Assembly: GCA_001799195.1 (NCBI GenBank)
Contig: MGSU01000223.1
Span: 1 to 6,978 of the forward strand
DNA: 6,978 nt
Direction: 5' to 3'
DNA from: Deltaproteobacteria bacterium RIFOXYA12_FULL_61_11
Lineage (GTDB): Bacteria; Bdellovibrionota_F; JAHFAK01; YA12-FULL-61-11
Below are positions 586-6,978 of this stretch, in pieces. How positions within the stretch are numbered: position 1 is the first letter of the stretch; each line of letters starts with the position of its first letter. The position numbers and the translations under genes are program-made. The notes under the pieces were generated by a model that saw nothing but the letters and a program-made list of their open reading frames with translations, made no database searches and had not been told where the DNA came from.

Positions 586-1656
586 ATGCTGTATTACCTG
601 TACGAATGGTTCGGCGCCCAAACGATTACCAATGTTTTCAAATATATTTCCTTCCGCACTTTAATGGCGGCCTCGACCTCCTTCTTGGTTGCCCTGATCG
701 CCGGCCGCTGGTTCATTTCCGCCCTAACCCATCGTCACATCGGCCAGGAGATCCGCACCGACGGGCCCCAGAGCCATTTGAAGAAAAAAGGTACTCCGAC
801 CATGGGCGGGCTGATGATCCTCGGCACCATCATCATCTCGGTCCTACTCTGGGCCCGCTGGGACAATCGTTTCGTCTGGAACGCTCTGGCCGTGTGCTTC
901 GGATTTGGCGCGCTCGGTCTGATGGACGACTACCGCAAGGTCGCCAGGCACAACTCCAAGGGGTTATCCCCTCGCGGCAAAATACTGCTGCAAACCCTGC
1001 TTGCGTTGGGCATCGGGGCCAGCCTCTTCTTCTACGGCTTCGACAGCACCTTGCATTTCCCGTTCTTCAAGGGACTGCAACTCGACCTCGGAGGGTGGTT
1101 CATCCCCTTCGCCGCCCTGGTCATCATCAGCACCTCGAACGCCGTCAACCTCACCGACGGCCTGGACGGTCTGGCCATCGGACCGATGATGATCGCGGCC
1201 GCTTCCTACCTGATCTTCGCCTATATCGCCGGGCACTTCTTCTTCAGTACCTATCTCATGGTTCCCCACGTCCCCGGGGCGGGAGAACTGTCCGTGGTCT
1301 GTGCGGCCGTGCTCGGATCGGGCCTGGGTTTCCTCTGGTACAACACCTACCCTGCGCAAGTCTTCATGGGCGATGTTGGTTCCCTCTCCCTCGGAGCCCT
1401 ACTCGGGTATATCGCCGTGGTGACCAAGCAGGAAATCCTGCTCATCCTCGTCGGTCTGGTCTTCGTACTGGAAACCCTCAGCGTGGTAATCCAGGTCGCC
1501 AGCTTCAAGATGCTGGGACGCCGCTTCTTCAAAATGGCGCCCCTCCACCACCACTTCGAACTCAAAGGGTGGGCCGAGCCTAAGATCATCGTGCGTTTCT
1601 GGATCATTTCGATCATCGCAACGCTGCTGTCTCTCAGCGCGTTGAAATTGAGGTAA
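586..1656 (+). CDS. mraY: Phospho-N-acetylmuramoyl-pentapeptide-transferase MraY
   Basis: MraY is the integral membrane enzyme that transfers phospho-MurNAc-pentapeptide from UDP to undecaprenyl phosphate, forming lipid I at the cytoplasmic face. The 356-residue product has the normal full length. Family motifs are all present: KKGTPTMGG (67-75), the catalytic Asp pair in MDDYRK (D114, D115), [13 protein letters not shown] (185-197), FMGDVGS with the third essential Asp (D263), and the triple-His motif [11 protein letters not shown] (319-329) near the C-terminus. Hydrophobic segments run through the length, fitting the ten-helix fold known for the family. The start is supported by AGGAG at 573-577, 8 bases before the ATG and inside the end of murF, and by the typical N-terminus MLYYLYEW. 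Only 3 bp separate it from murF and 3 bp from ftsW. In the classical cluster murD would follow mraY; here it does not. Confidence 0.98.
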
Positions 1657-1659
1657 GCG

Positions 1660-2799
1660 ATGAAGAAGACCTCGTCGCTACCTTTCCTGGGGCATCAATC
1701 GATCGACTACGTGATCTTCTTCGGCGCGATCCTTGTCGGAGTCTTCGGCTCGGTTGCCGTCTTCAGCTCCAGTGCGGTGTATTCGGAGTTGCGCTACCAG
1801 GATGCCTATCTGCTCTTCAAGAAACAATTGATCTTCCTGGTACTCGGCGTCGGCCTGATGACCTTTTTCGCCCATCTGCGCACGGACCTCATCCGGCACC
1901 TCGTCTATCCGATGCTCGTTCTCGGCTTCCTCCTGCTCGTATTCCTCTTCATCCCTGGCCTCGGTACCAAGGTGAACGCGGCCCAACGGTGGTTCCGCCT
2001 CGGGTTCCTCAGCATCCAACCGGCGGAATTGGCCAAGGTCGGTCTCATGCTCTACCTGGCTCACATCCTGGCAAAGAAAGGCGACAAGGTACGCGAGTTG
2101 GTCCACGGCGTGTTCCCGATCCTCTCCGTCGTCCTGTGCATGATGGTGCTGCTCATCCTACAACCCGATTTCGGCTCCACGGTCCTCGTCGGACTCCTGG
2201 CCCTGCTCATGTTGTTCCTCGCCGGCACCCGTATCTCCTACCTGCTCGGCCTCGTCGCGGTAACGTACCCCTTGCTGCACTATTCCATCATGGGAGTCGA
2301 CTATCGGCGCAAACGTCTGCTCTCCTTCCTCGATCCCTGGGCAGACCCCCAGAACTCCGGCTTCCAGATGATCCAGTCCTTCCTCGGTTTTCATCGCGGC
2401 GGCCTGTTCGGCGTCGGGTTCGGCGATGGGAAACAAAAGCTGCTCTATCTTCCCGAAGCCCATACCGACTTCGTCTTCACCTCGATCGGAGAAGAATTCG
2501 GCTTCCTCGGCGCACTCACCGTCGTGCTCATGTTCCTGGTCCTGATCATCAGGGCCTGGTTCGGGGCAAAATCCCAGGAGGACGATTTCCGCAGACTGGC
2601 CGGTTTCGGCCTGGTACTGCTCCTGGCCTTCCAGACCCTGTTTAATCTCGGGGTCGTGATCGGTCTCTTGCCGACCAAAGGTCTCGCTCTGCCCTTCATA
2701 AGCTACGGAGGCAGCTCCCTCGTGTGCAGCTATCTCCTTGTTGGTCTTCTCTTGAACGTTACTGCGGTGGAACATGGTGGAACGAAACCTCGAACATAA
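1660..2799 (+). CDS. ftsW: Septal peptidoglycan glycosyltransferase FtsW (SEDS family)
   Basis: FtsW is the SEDS-family membrane enzyme that polymerises lipid II into glycan strands at the division septum, working with a class B penicillin-binding protein. The 379-residue product is multi-spanning and of normal length. Seen motifs: WFRLGFLSIQPAELAK (111-126), the segment LPEAHTDFVFTSIGEEFG (264-281), whose Asp270 aligns with the catalytic Asp of E. coli FtsW (D297), and the C-terminal SEDS signature GLLPTKGLALPFISYGGSS (335-353). RodA is a close relative, but the dcw location and the LPEAHTDF text favour FtsW. The region before the catalytic loop reads QSFLGFHRGGLFGVGFGDGKQK, where many relatives have A-x-x-S/N-GG. 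The start is supported by GAGG at 1650-1653, 6 bases before the ATG and inside mraY. The 3' end overlaps murG by 26 bp, which suggests translational coupling. Confidence 0.96.
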   Translation: MKKTSSLPFLGHQSIDYVIFFGAILVGVFGSVAVFSSSAVYSELRYQDAYLLFKKQLIFLVLGVGLMTFFAHLRTDLIRHLVYPMLVLGFLLLVFLFIPGLGTKVNAAQRWFRLGFLSIQPAELAKVGLMLYLAHILAKKGDKVRELVHGVFPILSVVLCMMVLLILQPDFGSTVLVGLLALLMLFLAGTRISYLLGLVAVTYPLLHYSIMGVDYRRKRLLSFLDPWADPQNSGFQMIQSFLGFHRGGLFGVGFGDGKQKLLYLPEAHTDFVFTSIGEEFGFLGALTVVLMFLVLIIRAWFGAKSQEDDFRRLAGFGLVLLLAFQTLFNLGVVIGLLPTKGLALPFISYGGSSLVCSYLLVGLLLNVTAVEHGGTKPRT

Positions 2800-3898
2800 C
2801 ACCGTGCTGTTCACCGGCGGCGGCACCGGCGGGCACCTCTTCCCCGCCCTCAGTGTGGCCGAGGAATTCGTCCGAGCCTGCCGGGCCAAGGTAGTGTTCG
2901 TCGGTACCCCTCGCGGGATAGAGAGTCGAGAGGTTCCTCGCGCCGGGTACCCCCTCCATCTCCTCCCGGTCGTGCGTCTCAAACGGGTCTCTTGGGCCGA
3001 ACGGGTGCGCGCCCTCCTGGCCTTGCCGGTCTCCCTGTTCCTTGCCCTCTGGCTCATCCTCAGGCACCGGCCCATCGTGGTCATCGGTTTCGGCGGTTAT
3101 GCCAGTTTCGCCGTGGGCGCCGTGGCTGCGCTACTCGGTCGCACCCTGGTGCTCATGGAACAGAACAGCATCCCCGGACTCGCCAATCGCCTCCTCGCAC
3201 GATTGGCAAAGCGCATTTTCGTCAGCTTCGCCGAGGCAGCGGCCTGGTTTCCACAACCGGAACGCGTACTTTGGAGCGGCAATCCTCTTCGTCGCAGTTT
3301 CATTCAGGACGTGGCTCGCGGCACTGCTGAGCGGGACGAAACCCATTACACCATCACCATTTTCGGCGGCAGTCAGGGTTCGGCCCTCCTCAATCGGGTC
3401 GTGCCGTCGGCTCTCGGACAACTCGCCTCGGTCCAACGCGAAACCTTGCGGGTTATCCATCAGACCGGCGAGACCGACTTCACCGCCGTGACCAAGGTCT
3501 ACGAAGAAGTGGGGCTCACCGCGGAAACCAGAGCCTTTTTCGACGACCTCGGCTATCACCTCGGCCGCAGCAACTTGGTCATCGCGCGCGCGGGGAGTTC
3601 GGTGTTCGAGCTATCCTATTGCGGGCTGCCGGCCATCGTCATTCCCTTCGCTGGAGCCGCCGACGATCACCAGCGCCATAATGCCAGAGCCTTCGAACGG
3701 ACCGGCGCAGCCTTGGTCGTCGACGAGGCTGACTGCACCCCGGACTTCCTCCGCCGCACGGTGGCGGAAATGATCGAGCACCGTGAAGAATGGTCCCGGC
3801 GCGCCGTAGAAGCCTCGGCCCTGGGGCGGGAGGACTCGGCCCAATTCATCGTCCAAGCGTGCCTGCAGTTGGTCGCACAAGAGGCAGCGCAGCCATGA
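2774..3898 (+). CDS. murG: UDP-N-acetylglucosamine--lipid I N-acetylglucosaminyltransferase MurG
   Basis: MurG is the peripheral inner-membrane GT-B (family GT28) transferase that adds GlcNAc to lipid I to make lipid II, the substrate of FtsW encoded just upstream. The 374-residue product is slightly longer than usual. Motifs in order: glycine-rich loop TGGGTGGHLFPALSVA (14-29), IGFGGYAS (104-111), MEQNSIPGLANR (128-139), SGNPLR (168-173), second glycine-rich loop FGGSQGS (197-203), and the UDP-GlcNAc-binding segment ARAGSSVFELSYCGLPAIVIPF (271-292) followed by DDHQRHNA (297-304). About nine residues precede the usual start of the first strand. The ATG at 2774 lies inside ftsW and has only a weak GGTGG at 2766-2770, so initiation probably depends on coupling to ftsW. 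GTG codons at 2777 and 2804 are less likely starts. The stop overlaps the next gene's ATG as ATGA. Confidence 0.97.
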   Translation: MVERNLEHNTVLFTGGGTGGHLFPALSVAEEFVRACRAKVVFVGTPRGIESREVPRAGYPLHLLPVVRLKRVSWAERVRALLALPVSLFLALWLILRHRPIVVIGFGGYASFAVGAVAALLGRTLVLMEQNSIPGLANRLLARLAKRIFVSFAEAAAWFPQPERVLWSGNPLRRSFIQDVARGTAERDETHYTITIFGGSQGSALLNRVVPSALGQLASVQRETLRVIHQTGETDFTAVTKVYEEVGLTAETRAFFDDLGYHLGRSNLVIARAGSSVFELSYCGLPAIVIPFAGAADDHQRHNARAFERTGAALVVDEADCTPDFLRRTVAEMIEHREEWSRRAVEASALGREDSAQFIVQACLQLVAQEAAQP

Positions 3899-4722
3899 CC
3901 GCGACCATGCTCACCACCCAACGCGTGCGCAAACGCACCTCTCGACCTCGGCCTCGCACGAACTCCAACGCTCGCGGTTCGATACGGCGCTGGCTCCGTC
4001 GCCTGACCCTCGGCTTGCTGCTCGCGGCTTCGACAACGGGGGTCTTTCTCGGTGGGTACGCTGTGTTTACCTCCAACTTCTTCGCCCTCCACGAACCGGT
4101 CTTCTGCTTCGACCAACCCTGTAGCGCGAACCTCGAAAAGGTCCGCCGCTTCGGCTTGCACCATGTGCTCCAACCCTGGTTGGGTCAGAATATCTACTTC
4201 CTCGATACCGCGGCGTTGAGGGCCAGCCTCGAACAACATCCGGACCTGGCTCACACCACGATCCGTCGGGTCTTCCCGAACACCCTGGTAATCCACATCG
4301 TCGAAGAACAGCCCGTCGCGCTCCTGCTGCAAGACGGGGCGCTGTACCTGGTCAATGCCCAGGGCAAAGCCTATAAGAAGGCCAAGCCCAGCAGTGGGAA
4401 AGACCTTCCCGTGATCTCGGCCTGCGCTTCTACCCTCGAACGAGGTGAATGTCTGAGGAAGGCGCTCGAGGCCGTGACCGTTTTCAAGGCTGCGCGCATC
4501 GTTCATCTGGTCTCTGAACTCGGGGTCGAGGCAGAACGTCTGCGCATCGTGTTCACGGACCTCGAGTATCCCGTCTACTTCGCGCTACCTCTCCCGGCGG
4601 ACAGCATCACCCGGCTGAACGCCTCGAGGTCGTACCTAGGAACCCAGAAAACGAGAGTTTTCACCGTCGACCTGTCGTATCCGGGCAAGGCCGTAGCCCG
4701 CACCGACAGAGCATATTTCTAG
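3895..4722 (+). CDS. ftsQ: Cell division protein FtsQ (single-pass membrane protein with POTRA domain)
   Basis: FtsQ is a bitopic divisome protein that binds FtsB/FtsL in the periplasm and connects the cytoplasmic ring to septal wall synthesis. The 275-residue product has the family layout: an Arg-rich cytoplasmic tail (about 1-36), one membrane helix (about 37-58), a POTRA-like region (about 66-143) ending in the typical RRVFPNTLVIHIVEEQPVAL (124-143), then the FtsQ beta domain with YLVNAQGKAYK (151-161) and DLPVIS (170-175). Four cysteines (71, 76, 177, 186) all lie on the periplasmic side; CFDQPC sits where relatives usually have a V-x-G-N type strand. The ATG at 3895 is chosen because it overlaps the murG stop as ATGA and has AAGAGG at 3879-3884, 10 bases upstream; an open frame extends back to 3790 within murG but lacks family similarity. 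MurC, murB and ddl, usually found just before ftsQ, are absent. The family call rests on layout, a few motifs and position. Confidence 0.9.
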   Translation: MTATMLTTQRVRKRTSRPRPRTNSNARGSIRRWLRRLTLGLLLAASTTGVFLGGYAVFTSNFFALHEPVFCFDQPCSANLEKVRRFGLHHVLQPWLGQNIYFLDTAALRASLEQHPDLAHTTIRRVFPNTLVIHIVEEQPVALLLQDGALYLVNAQGKAYKKAKPSSGKDLPVISACASTLERGECLRKALEAVTVFKAARIVHLVSELGVEAERLRIVFTDLEYPVYFALPLPADSITRLNASRSYLGTQKTRVFTVDLSYPGKAVARTDRAYF

Positions 4723-4739: not shown

Positions 4740-5984
4740 ATGCGCCAAAACAAATCGATCGTCGCCGCGCTCGACATCGGCTCGTCGAAAACCTGTTGCG
4801 TCATCGCGGCACAGCAGGACCGAGCCCTGGAGATCGTGGGTCTCGGAACCACTGTTACCCAAGGCTATCGCCGCGGTGCATTGGTTGACCTCGACAAGAC
4901 GGTCGCCGGGATCCAAGTCGCCATCGAGGAAGCGGAGACCATGGCCGGTGTGGAGATTTCCTCGGTCTATGCAGGGGTCGGAGGTTGTGGGGCAAAAGGG
5001 TTCAACAGCCACGGCGTTGTCGGCATCAAGGGCCGTGAAATCACCCGGACCGACATCGGCCGAGTTATCGAGGCCGCGACCGCGGTAGCCATGCCTCCTG
5101 ACAGGGAGGTCCTCCATATCTTGGTCAACGAGTACCAGGTCGATGATCAGGGGGAGATCCGAGACCCGGTCGGCATTTGCGGCGTGCGACTCGAAGCCAG
5201 GGTTCACCTCGTTACCACTTTGGCCAGCGCGGCCCAGAATGTCATCCGTTGTACCAACCAATGCGGTCTCAAGGTCGAAGACCTCGTGCTCAACCCCATG
5301 GCCTCAGCAGAAGCGGTGCTCGGTCTGGACGAACGCAAGCTCGGAGTCGCCTTGGTCGACATCGGCGGCGGCACCTCCGATCTCGTCATCTACGTCAACG
5401 GCCAGGTCGTCCATACGACCTCGGTCCCAGTCGGCGGAGCCAACATCAGCAATGACATCGCCGTGGGGCTCCGCACACCAACTGCCGAGGCCGACAGACT
5501 GAAGGAGTTGTTCGGGTTGGCGTCGAGTAGCCTGGTGCACAAGGACGAGACGGTCGAAGTCCCCTCCGTCGGCGGCCGGAGCCCGCGGATGATCTCCCGT
5601 AAGATCCTCTGCGACATCATCGAGCCCCGACTCAAAGAACTCCTGCAGATGATCCACCAGGAGCTCGTTGCCTCGGGTTACGAGGGTGAACTCAACTCAG
5701 GGGTTGTCCTGACAGGAGGGGCAGCGCTCATGGAAGGTTTTCCCGAGATGGCCGAGCAGATCTTCGGCTGTCCGGTGCGGAGAGCCTATCCGTCCGTGGG
5801 CGGAGGCTTGTCCGACCTCGTCCACAGTCCTGTTTACAGCACGGTTCTGGGCCTCTTGGTCCACGATCACGCTCAACCGGGGATCAGTGCCGGAAACCGC
5901 ACCAGGAGCCGCGAGCGGAACACCGAGGGAATGTATTTCCGGATGAGGAATCGCATGAGCGGTTTCTTCAAGGAATTCTTCTGA
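4740..5984 (+). CDS. ftsA: Cell division protein FtsA (actin-like membrane tether for FtsZ)
   Basis: FtsA is the actin-family ATPase that anchors FtsZ filaments to the inner membrane through a C-terminal amphipathic helix and recruits later divisome proteins. The 414-residue product is of normal length. Seen: phosphate-1 motif ALDIGSSKTC (10-19), domain 1C text KGFNSHGVVGIKGRE (86-100), QNVIRCTNQCGL (166-177), phosphate-2 motif VDIGGGTSDLVIY (206-218), adenosine motif VVLTGGAALMEGF (322-334), and a C-terminal tail ending YFRMRNRMSGFFKEFF (399-414), which fits the membrane-targeting helix. The segment between about 376 and 398 is polar and probably a flexible linker. The start is fixed by the strong ribosome binding site ending 8 bases upstream and by the family-like N-terminus. 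Spacing is 17 bp from ftsQ, and ftsZ follows, the usual pairing. Confidence 0.97.
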   Translation: MRQNKSIVAALDIGSSKTCCVIAAQQDRALEIVGLGTTVTQGYRRGALVDLDKTVAGIQVAIEEAETMAGVEISSVYAGVGGCGAKGFNSHGVVGIKGREITRTDIGRVIEAATAVAMPPDREVLHILVNEYQVDDQGEIRDPVGICGVRLEARVHLVTTLASAAQNVIRCTNQCGLKVEDLVLNPMASAEAVLGLDERKLGVALVDIGGGTSDLVIYVNGQVVHTTSVPVGGANISNDIAVGLRTPTAEADRLKELFGLASSSLVHKDETVEVPSVGGRSPRMISRKILCDIIEPRLKELLQMIHQELVASGYEGELNSGVVLTGGAALMEGFPEMAEQIFGCPVRRAYPSVGGGLSDLVHSPVYSTVLGLLVHDHAQPGISAGNRTRSRERNTEGMYFRMRNRMSGFFKEFF

Positions 5985-6054
5985 GAGAACGGAGCATGAC
6001 CTACAACACCATTGAGAATCATAGGGGGGTAGCATGGTAGAGAGGGGGGGTAGC
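5985..6054 (+). promoter_or_regulatory. ftsA-ftsZ intergenic leader with duplicated translation-start module
   Basis: This 70-bp gap is the only sizeable non-coding stretch in the window. I see no terminator hairpin and no convincing sigma-70 promoter. It holds a short possible reading frame (ATG at 5996, 14 codons, stop TAG at 6038-6040) and two copies of a G-rich Shine-Dalgarno sequence, each followed by TAGC and ATG. The second ATG (6055) matches the expected FtsZ N-terminus; the first (6034) is in the same frame. Its likely role is control of ftsZ translation, inferred from position only. Confidence 0.6.
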
Positions 6055-6058
6055 ATGG
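6023..6058 (+). repeat. Direct repeat of ribosome binding site plus start codon before ftsZ
   Basis: Copy 1 (6023-6037) is A, six G, then TAGCATGG. Copy 2 (6043-6058) is A, seven G, then TAGCATGG. They are identical except for one G in the run, and are separated by TAGAG (6038-6042). The two ATGs (6034 and 6055) are 21 bp apart and therefore in frame. Each ATG has its own Shine-Dalgarno sequence AGGGG, 6 bases (copy 1) and 7 bases (copy 2) upstream. Confidence 0.85.
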
Positions 6059-6978
6059 GGGCATTCGAAGAAATCACCGAGAATCGCATCAAGATCCGAG
6101 CCATCGGGGTCGGCGGCGGTGGCAACAACGCGATCAATCACATGGTCGCCAGGGGTATTCGCGGGGTCGAACTCATCGCGGCAAATACCGACTACCAAGC
6201 GCTCACCAACTGTGCGGTGGATGCAAAACTGCAGCTCGGCACCCGACTCACCAAGGGCCTGGGCGCGGGTTCGGACCCGAGCATCGGCCGCGACAGCGCC
6301 ATGGAGGATAACGCCCGCATCGTCCAGTTGATCGAAGGCAGCGACATGGTCTTCGTCACCGCGGGCATGGGGGGCGGCACCGGCACCGGAGCGGCGCCGG
6401 TTATTGCCAATATTGCCAAGGAAATGGGCATCTTGACCGTCGGCGTGGTGACCAAACCCTTCCTGTTCGAGGGCAAGAAGCGCCAACGCGTGGCGGAGGA
6501 AGGAGTCCAGGCCCTGCGCAAGGTGGTCGACACCCTGATCGTCATTCCCAACGAGCGCCTCATGACCATGGCCGAGACCAAGGTCTCGTTCGCCAAGAGT
6601 TTCTCGCTGGCCGACGATATCCTCTTCCAGGCCGTGCAGAGTATTTGCGATATCATCAACCACAACGGCTATATCAACGTCGACTTCGCCGATGTACGTT
6701 CGGTGATGGTCAACCGCGGCATGGCCCTGATGGGTACGGGCCTCAGCAAGGGCGAGAACGCGCTGGTCGACGCCACCCACAAGGCTATTTCCAGTCCCTT
6801 GCTCGAGGATGTCTCGATCTCCGGCGCTACGGGCATCCTGATGACCGTCATGGGTGCTTCCGAGAACATCTCCCTGGTCGACGTCAACAAGGCGGCCACC
6901 ATTGTCAACGAGGAGGCCCACGAGGACGTCAACTTCAAGTTCGGCTTCGTCATCGACGAGGACATGGGGGAGGAGGTC
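6055..6978 (+). CDS. ftsZ: Cell division protein FtsZ (tubulin-like GTPase), N-terminal part (3' end outside the window)
   Basis: FtsZ is the tubulin-family GTPase that polymerises into the cytoplasmic division ring and is held at the membrane by FtsA, encoded just upstream. The frame is open to the end of the window, giving 308 residues: the GTPase domain and most of the second domain, without the variable linker and the C-terminal peptide. Seen: IGVGGGGNNAI (17-27), ANTDYQAL (43-50), tubulin signature GGGTGTG (106-112), TKPFLFEGKKR (133-143), the T7 catalytic loop with N208, D210 and D213 in NVDFADV, and AISSPLLED (244-252). The start at 6055 gives MGAFEEITEN, a usual FtsZ N-terminus, and has a Shine-Dalgarno sequence AGGGG 7 bases away. 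An in-frame ATG at 6034 with its own similar site would add MVERGGS; both may be used. No residues of the active site appear altered. Confidence 0.97.
   Translation, partial: MGAFEEITENRIKIRAIGVGGGGNNAINHMVARGIRGVELIAANTDYQALTNCAVDAKLQLGTRLTKGLGAGSDPSIGRDSAMEDNARIVQLIEGSDMVFVTAGMGGGTGTGAAPVIANIAKEMGILTVGVVTKPFLFEGKKRQRVAEEGVQALRKVVDTLIVIPNERLMTMAETKVSFAKSFSLADDILFQAVQSICDIINHNGYINVDFADVRSVMVNRGMALMGTGLSKGENALVDATHKAISSPLLEDVSISGATGILMTVMGASENISLVDVNKAATIVNEEAHEDVNFKFGFVIDEDMGEEV

Follow-up and report, generated by a model that had tools for sequence, protein, structure and literature searches.

Short tandem duplications arise through replication slippage, which in its clean form leaves a unit repeated head to tail. 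Bacteria are known to make pairs of N-terminal proteoforms by starting translation at neighbouring sites, and the two starts are often less than 15 residues apart (PMC13245402, PMC11005335); in Escherichia coli, infB (IF2 alpha/beta) and the gene for the long and short forms of CheA each have two in-frame starts (PMC11005335). At ribosome standby sites, such as that of tisB, ribosomes bind upstream of the main start; such a site is reported to feed a sequestered ribosome-binding site from a distance, about 100 nt in tisB (PMC7708055). The start region of ftsZ in Deltaproteobacteria bacterium RIFOXYA12_FULL_61_11 resembles each of these in part. Like infB and the CheA gene it has two in-frame starts for one gene, but here the sites are near-identical copies separated by 21 nt, the products would differ by only 7 residues and the upstream start is putative. 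It shares with standby sites the ribosome-binding stretch upstream of the main start, but here a complete Shine-Dalgarno sequence (SD) with its own ATG lies just 21 nt upstream, and the predicted folding includes no strong sequestering structure. As in slippage duplications, 15-16 nt are copied almost exactly, at an offset of 20-21 bp and with a one-base homopolymer difference, although five unduplicated bases separate the copies. Dual start sites of this sort are known in kind; no report of an FtsZ with two translation starts was found in the literature searched, most subscription journals lying outside its coverage.

The window, i.e. the whole stretch of 6,978 nt that was analysed, is an entire contig (C223) of a 4.64-Mb assembly in 342 contigs that is 87% complete. 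Around the ftsZ start it contains the following features:

4740 to 5984, forward strand: ftsA, the upstream neighbour (TIGR01174, E = 7.6e-126), ending in the membrane-helix-like SGFFKEFF
5985 to 6054, forward strand: gap between ftsA and ftsZ, 70 nt up to the putative conserved start
5996 to 6040, forward strand: 14-codon open reading frame, MTYNTIENHRGVAW plus stop, with a weak SD energy (-2.9)
6023 to 6037, forward strand: first copy of the module, A-G6-TAGCATGG, i.e. A (6023), G6 (6024-6029), TAGC, ATG (6034-6036) and G, with the upstream start at 6034
6038 to 6042, forward strand: TAGAG, the unduplicated bases separating the copies
6043 to 6058, forward strand: second copy of the module, A-G7-TAGCATGG, i.e. 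A (6043), G7 (6044-6050), TAGC, ATG (6055-6057) and G, with the putative conserved FtsZ start at 6055
6055 to 6978, forward strand: ftsZ (TIGR00065, E = 1.2e-110), its 3' end lost at the contig end

The two ATGs (6034 and 6055) are 21 nt apart and both stand in the FtsZ frame, so that a start at 6034 adds MVERGGS to the N-terminus of FtsZ; nearly all of this extension is encoded by the duplicated SD region together with the unduplicated bases that separate the copies. The offset between the copies is 20 bp at the leading A and 21 bp at the ATG because the second copy has one extra G, and the exact string common to both, GGGGGGTAGCATGG, is 14 nt long with an offset of 21. The five bases on either side are unlike (ATCAT and TAGAG flank the first copy, TAGAG and GGGCA the second), so that the copied part extends no further than the SD and its spacer, the ATG and a single G. 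Beyond the two ftsZ modules, no further copy of GGGGTAGCATGG was found in the assembly. The 14-codon frame, which begins just after the ftsA stop, overlaps the upstream ATG and ends 2 nt before the second module, is probably incidental; its SD is weak, and a role as a coupling leader was rejected as lacking support. Neither a promoter nor a terminator was found in the ftsA-ftsZ gap, nor an Rfam family in the window.

The window as a whole shows part of a division and cell-wall cluster, with the order murF-mraY-ftsW-murG-ftsQ-ftsA-ftsZ (586-4722 for the part upstream of ftsA), in which murF, mraY, ftsW and murG were named by eye from their translations. Within this part murD is absent between mraY and ftsW, as are murC, murB and ddl between murG and ftsQ; the Mur ligase C-terminal domain has only three matches in the 87%-complete assembly. 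No second FtsZ was found in the genome. A weak DNA match on another contig (C247) is unrelated, being a short stretch in what reads as the gene for a VWA-type protein.

In sequences simulated with an order-1 Markov model, exact direct repeats of 14 nt or longer within 45 nt turned up in 2 of 20,000 leaders, and in 1 of the 300 windows simulated in full; the chance of such a repeat in a leader is about 1e-4. A repeat this rare in the simulations is therefore not base-composition noise, and the near-identical neighbouring copies exceed chance, as is characteristic of a tandem micro-duplication. A G-rich SD and an ATG could come to resemble their counterparts through function, but an identical TAGC spacer is not needed for function; since this functionally loose spacer is repeated along with them, copying is indicated rather than convergence. 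Genome statistics were drawn from about 1.14 Mb of contig stretches of the same genome, where runs of N swell the repeat count, from which only named non-N repeats and the numbers of G runs were taken. One such repeat, at 733-806 of a stretch on contig C11 (L125), is an exact direct repeat of 37 nt at offset 37, GTATTTGTTACGAGATTTTACCTCCGGGATGAGGTTT. Of 711 non-overlapping open reading frames of at least 150 codons from this sample, none has a pair of in-frame ATGs, spaced 9-45 nt, with SD pairing of -7 kcal/mol or better at each; this absence could alternatively mean that ftsZ is in some way special. Dual ATG starts at a weaker limit (-5 or better) number 22 of 711, and the control codons ATC and AAG are not far below, with 14 and 12. 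This genome does use G-rich SDs: of 525 first ATGs, 15 have GGGGG in the interval -15 to -4, versus 20 of 3,218 internal ones; GGAGG is the most enriched 5-mer, and ftsA itself carries GAGGGGG.

We compared the locus with the sole other genome of the same phylum (G001), a distant one with an FtsZ 56% identical, and with 64 other distinct ftsZ leaders. The lineage is poorly sampled, with only that one other genome of its phylum in the comparison set. The ftsZ of G001 has a single module, AAAGGAGG-TTTTGT-ATG, and its protein begins with 13 residues, MFEFDATKESTAK, ahead of the motif IKVLGVGG. The start at 6055 likewise leaves 13 residues ahead of the corresponding IRAIGVGG, and in the other bacteria the start with the best SD leaves 13 residues in 19 of 64 (the commonest length) and 12-16 in 55 of 64. 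The start at 6034, by comparison, would leave 20, a length seen in 2 of 64. These lengths point to 6055 as the conserved start. None of the 64 leaders of other bacteria contains the duplicated module; one of them (L026) has two strong SD-ATG pairs in frame, 15 nt apart, that do not form a repeat. Conservation among relatives, which would be supportive of a proteoform pair though not strictly required for one, is thus seen neither in G001 nor in the 64 leaders. That the duplication is recent would follow from the identity of its copies and from relatives that are all distant, with FtsZ at most 56% identical, the sole genome of the same phylum included.

No 16S rRNA gene was found in the assembly, and hence the anti-SD sequence had to be assumed. 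With a spacing of at least 3 nt required, the predicted pairing is -10.2 kcal/mol for the first SD and -10.9 kcal/mol for the second. Each ATG would accordingly have its own ribosome-binding sequence, as had been proposed in the preliminary description; its coordinates for the module, and the FtsZ frame that it assigned to both ATGs, likewise agree with the sequence and with the open reading frame and its TIGR00065 match. The gene thus has two start codons in the same frame, as N-terminal proteoform pairs do, and each is predicted to have the SD that a dual in-frame start needs. With a Bacillus subtilis-type tail the second SD pairs better (-16.2 versus -11.3), whereas with the shortest anti-SD and unlimited spacing the first is slightly better (-12.3 versus -11.6). 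The predicted unpaired fraction is 0.44 for the second copy and 0.31 for the first in the wider ensemble. Taken alone, the 76-nt segment 6015-6090 has a weak predicted fold (-9.5 kcal/mol), and there is no clear sequestering hairpin at the second copy, which is predicted to be partially paired (44% unpaired). A G-quadruplex over the G6, G7 and G5 runs was not formed in ViennaRNA with G4 energies, with which a positive control does form one.

We consider it probable that the feature is a recent, lineage-specific micro-duplication that has been tolerated because a working FtsZ would result from either start, and that it is more a curiosity than an established control device. A tandem micro-duplication with a unit of about 20 bp would have copied the ribosome-binding site and start codon of ftsZ once in this lineage. 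It would have stayed in frame because a strong out-of-frame start before an essential gene would divert ribosomes, probably at a cost to the cell. By frame bookkeeping, with one G fewer in the second run (G6) the start at 6034 would read a long wrong frame, and with one more (G8) it would stop after MVERGG, just before the ATG at 6055. Given these outcomes, in-frame retention is expected without any regulatory role, and a frame match with one-in-three odds is not evidence of selection. The footprint of the 30S ribosome is about 30 nt and the starts are 21 nt apart; hence they should be mutually exclusive, competing rather than assisting, such that a ribosome would start at 6034 or 6055 but never at both at once. 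This makes less likely the suggestion of the preliminary description that the upstream module boosts the downstream start, as footprints at this distance should overlap; its third reading, a recent neutral duplication, is favoured by G001 and the 64 leaders, which lack the duplicate, and by the length of the protein from 6055. Either start would give FtsZ, with or without MVERGGS. The start at 6055 probably supplies most of the protein, since its SD pairs better under the spacing limit or with the longer tail and is predicted to be less paired, but this dominance is not firm, the differences being modest and one scoring favouring the first SD. The SD and ATG at 6034 make some initiation there likely, and two forms of FtsZ may exist. 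We infer, then, a recent duplication with both starts in use, 6055 dominant and a net effect on the cell that is probably small.

Other explanations assign a role to the upstream copy. It could be part of a functional dual start, by which the cell would keep two FtsZ proteoforms at a regulated ratio, one of them extended by MVERGGS at the flexible N-terminus. Both sites do have an in-frame ATG with a strong predicted SD, and such pairs do occur in bacteria, often with a difference of under 15 residues (PMC13245402, PMC11005335), so that some longer FtsZ would not surprise; but the arrangement is conserved neither in the single relative from the phylum nor among the 64 other leaders, the extension comes nearly all from the duplicated SD region and the inter-copy bases, and a regulated pair seems unlikely. 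The module might instead tune dosage if ribosomes loaded or competed there, with more or less FtsZ made from 6055 as a result. Upstream ribosome-binding regions can influence downstream initiation, as is reported for standby sites (PMC3936740); however, with overlapping 30S footprints competition is likelier than help, no G-quadruplex, Rfam element or strong local structure is predicted that standby binding could relieve, and such tuning appears quite improbable. That selection maintains the module as a device in this poorly sampled phylum, either to set FtsZ dosage or to provide a second proteoform extended by seven residues at its N-terminus, is rather unlikely.

Under phase variation at the poly-G tract, a changing length of the G7 run would move the upstream start among the FtsZ frame, a wrong-frame product and a six-codon minigene. 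The frame bookkeeping yields exactly these outcomes for G7, G6 and G8, but phase variation usually involves longer tracts than 6-7 G, this genome has many runs of at least 6 G (500 in 1.14 Mb, both strands counted), a single assembled state is seen, and such switching is scarcely credible. That 20 bp were falsely duplicated, or the G count is wrong, might be suspected in an assembly fragmented into 342 contigs. The 36-bp feature nevertheless fits well within one short read and lies about 920 bp from the contig end, and the remaining ftsA and ftsZ frames are intact, making a sequencing or assembly artefact very improbable.

The doubled module is thus a real, locally rare sequence feature and most likely a neutral or nearly neutral duplication. 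Gene callers often choose the longest frame (PMC11005335), and if the upstream start is unused they may here give FtsZ seven residues too many at its N-terminus. Should both starts be used, the locus would be a natural example of an essential division gene with copied start sites in competition, and a neat way to test the choice that ribosomes make between nearly equal starts.
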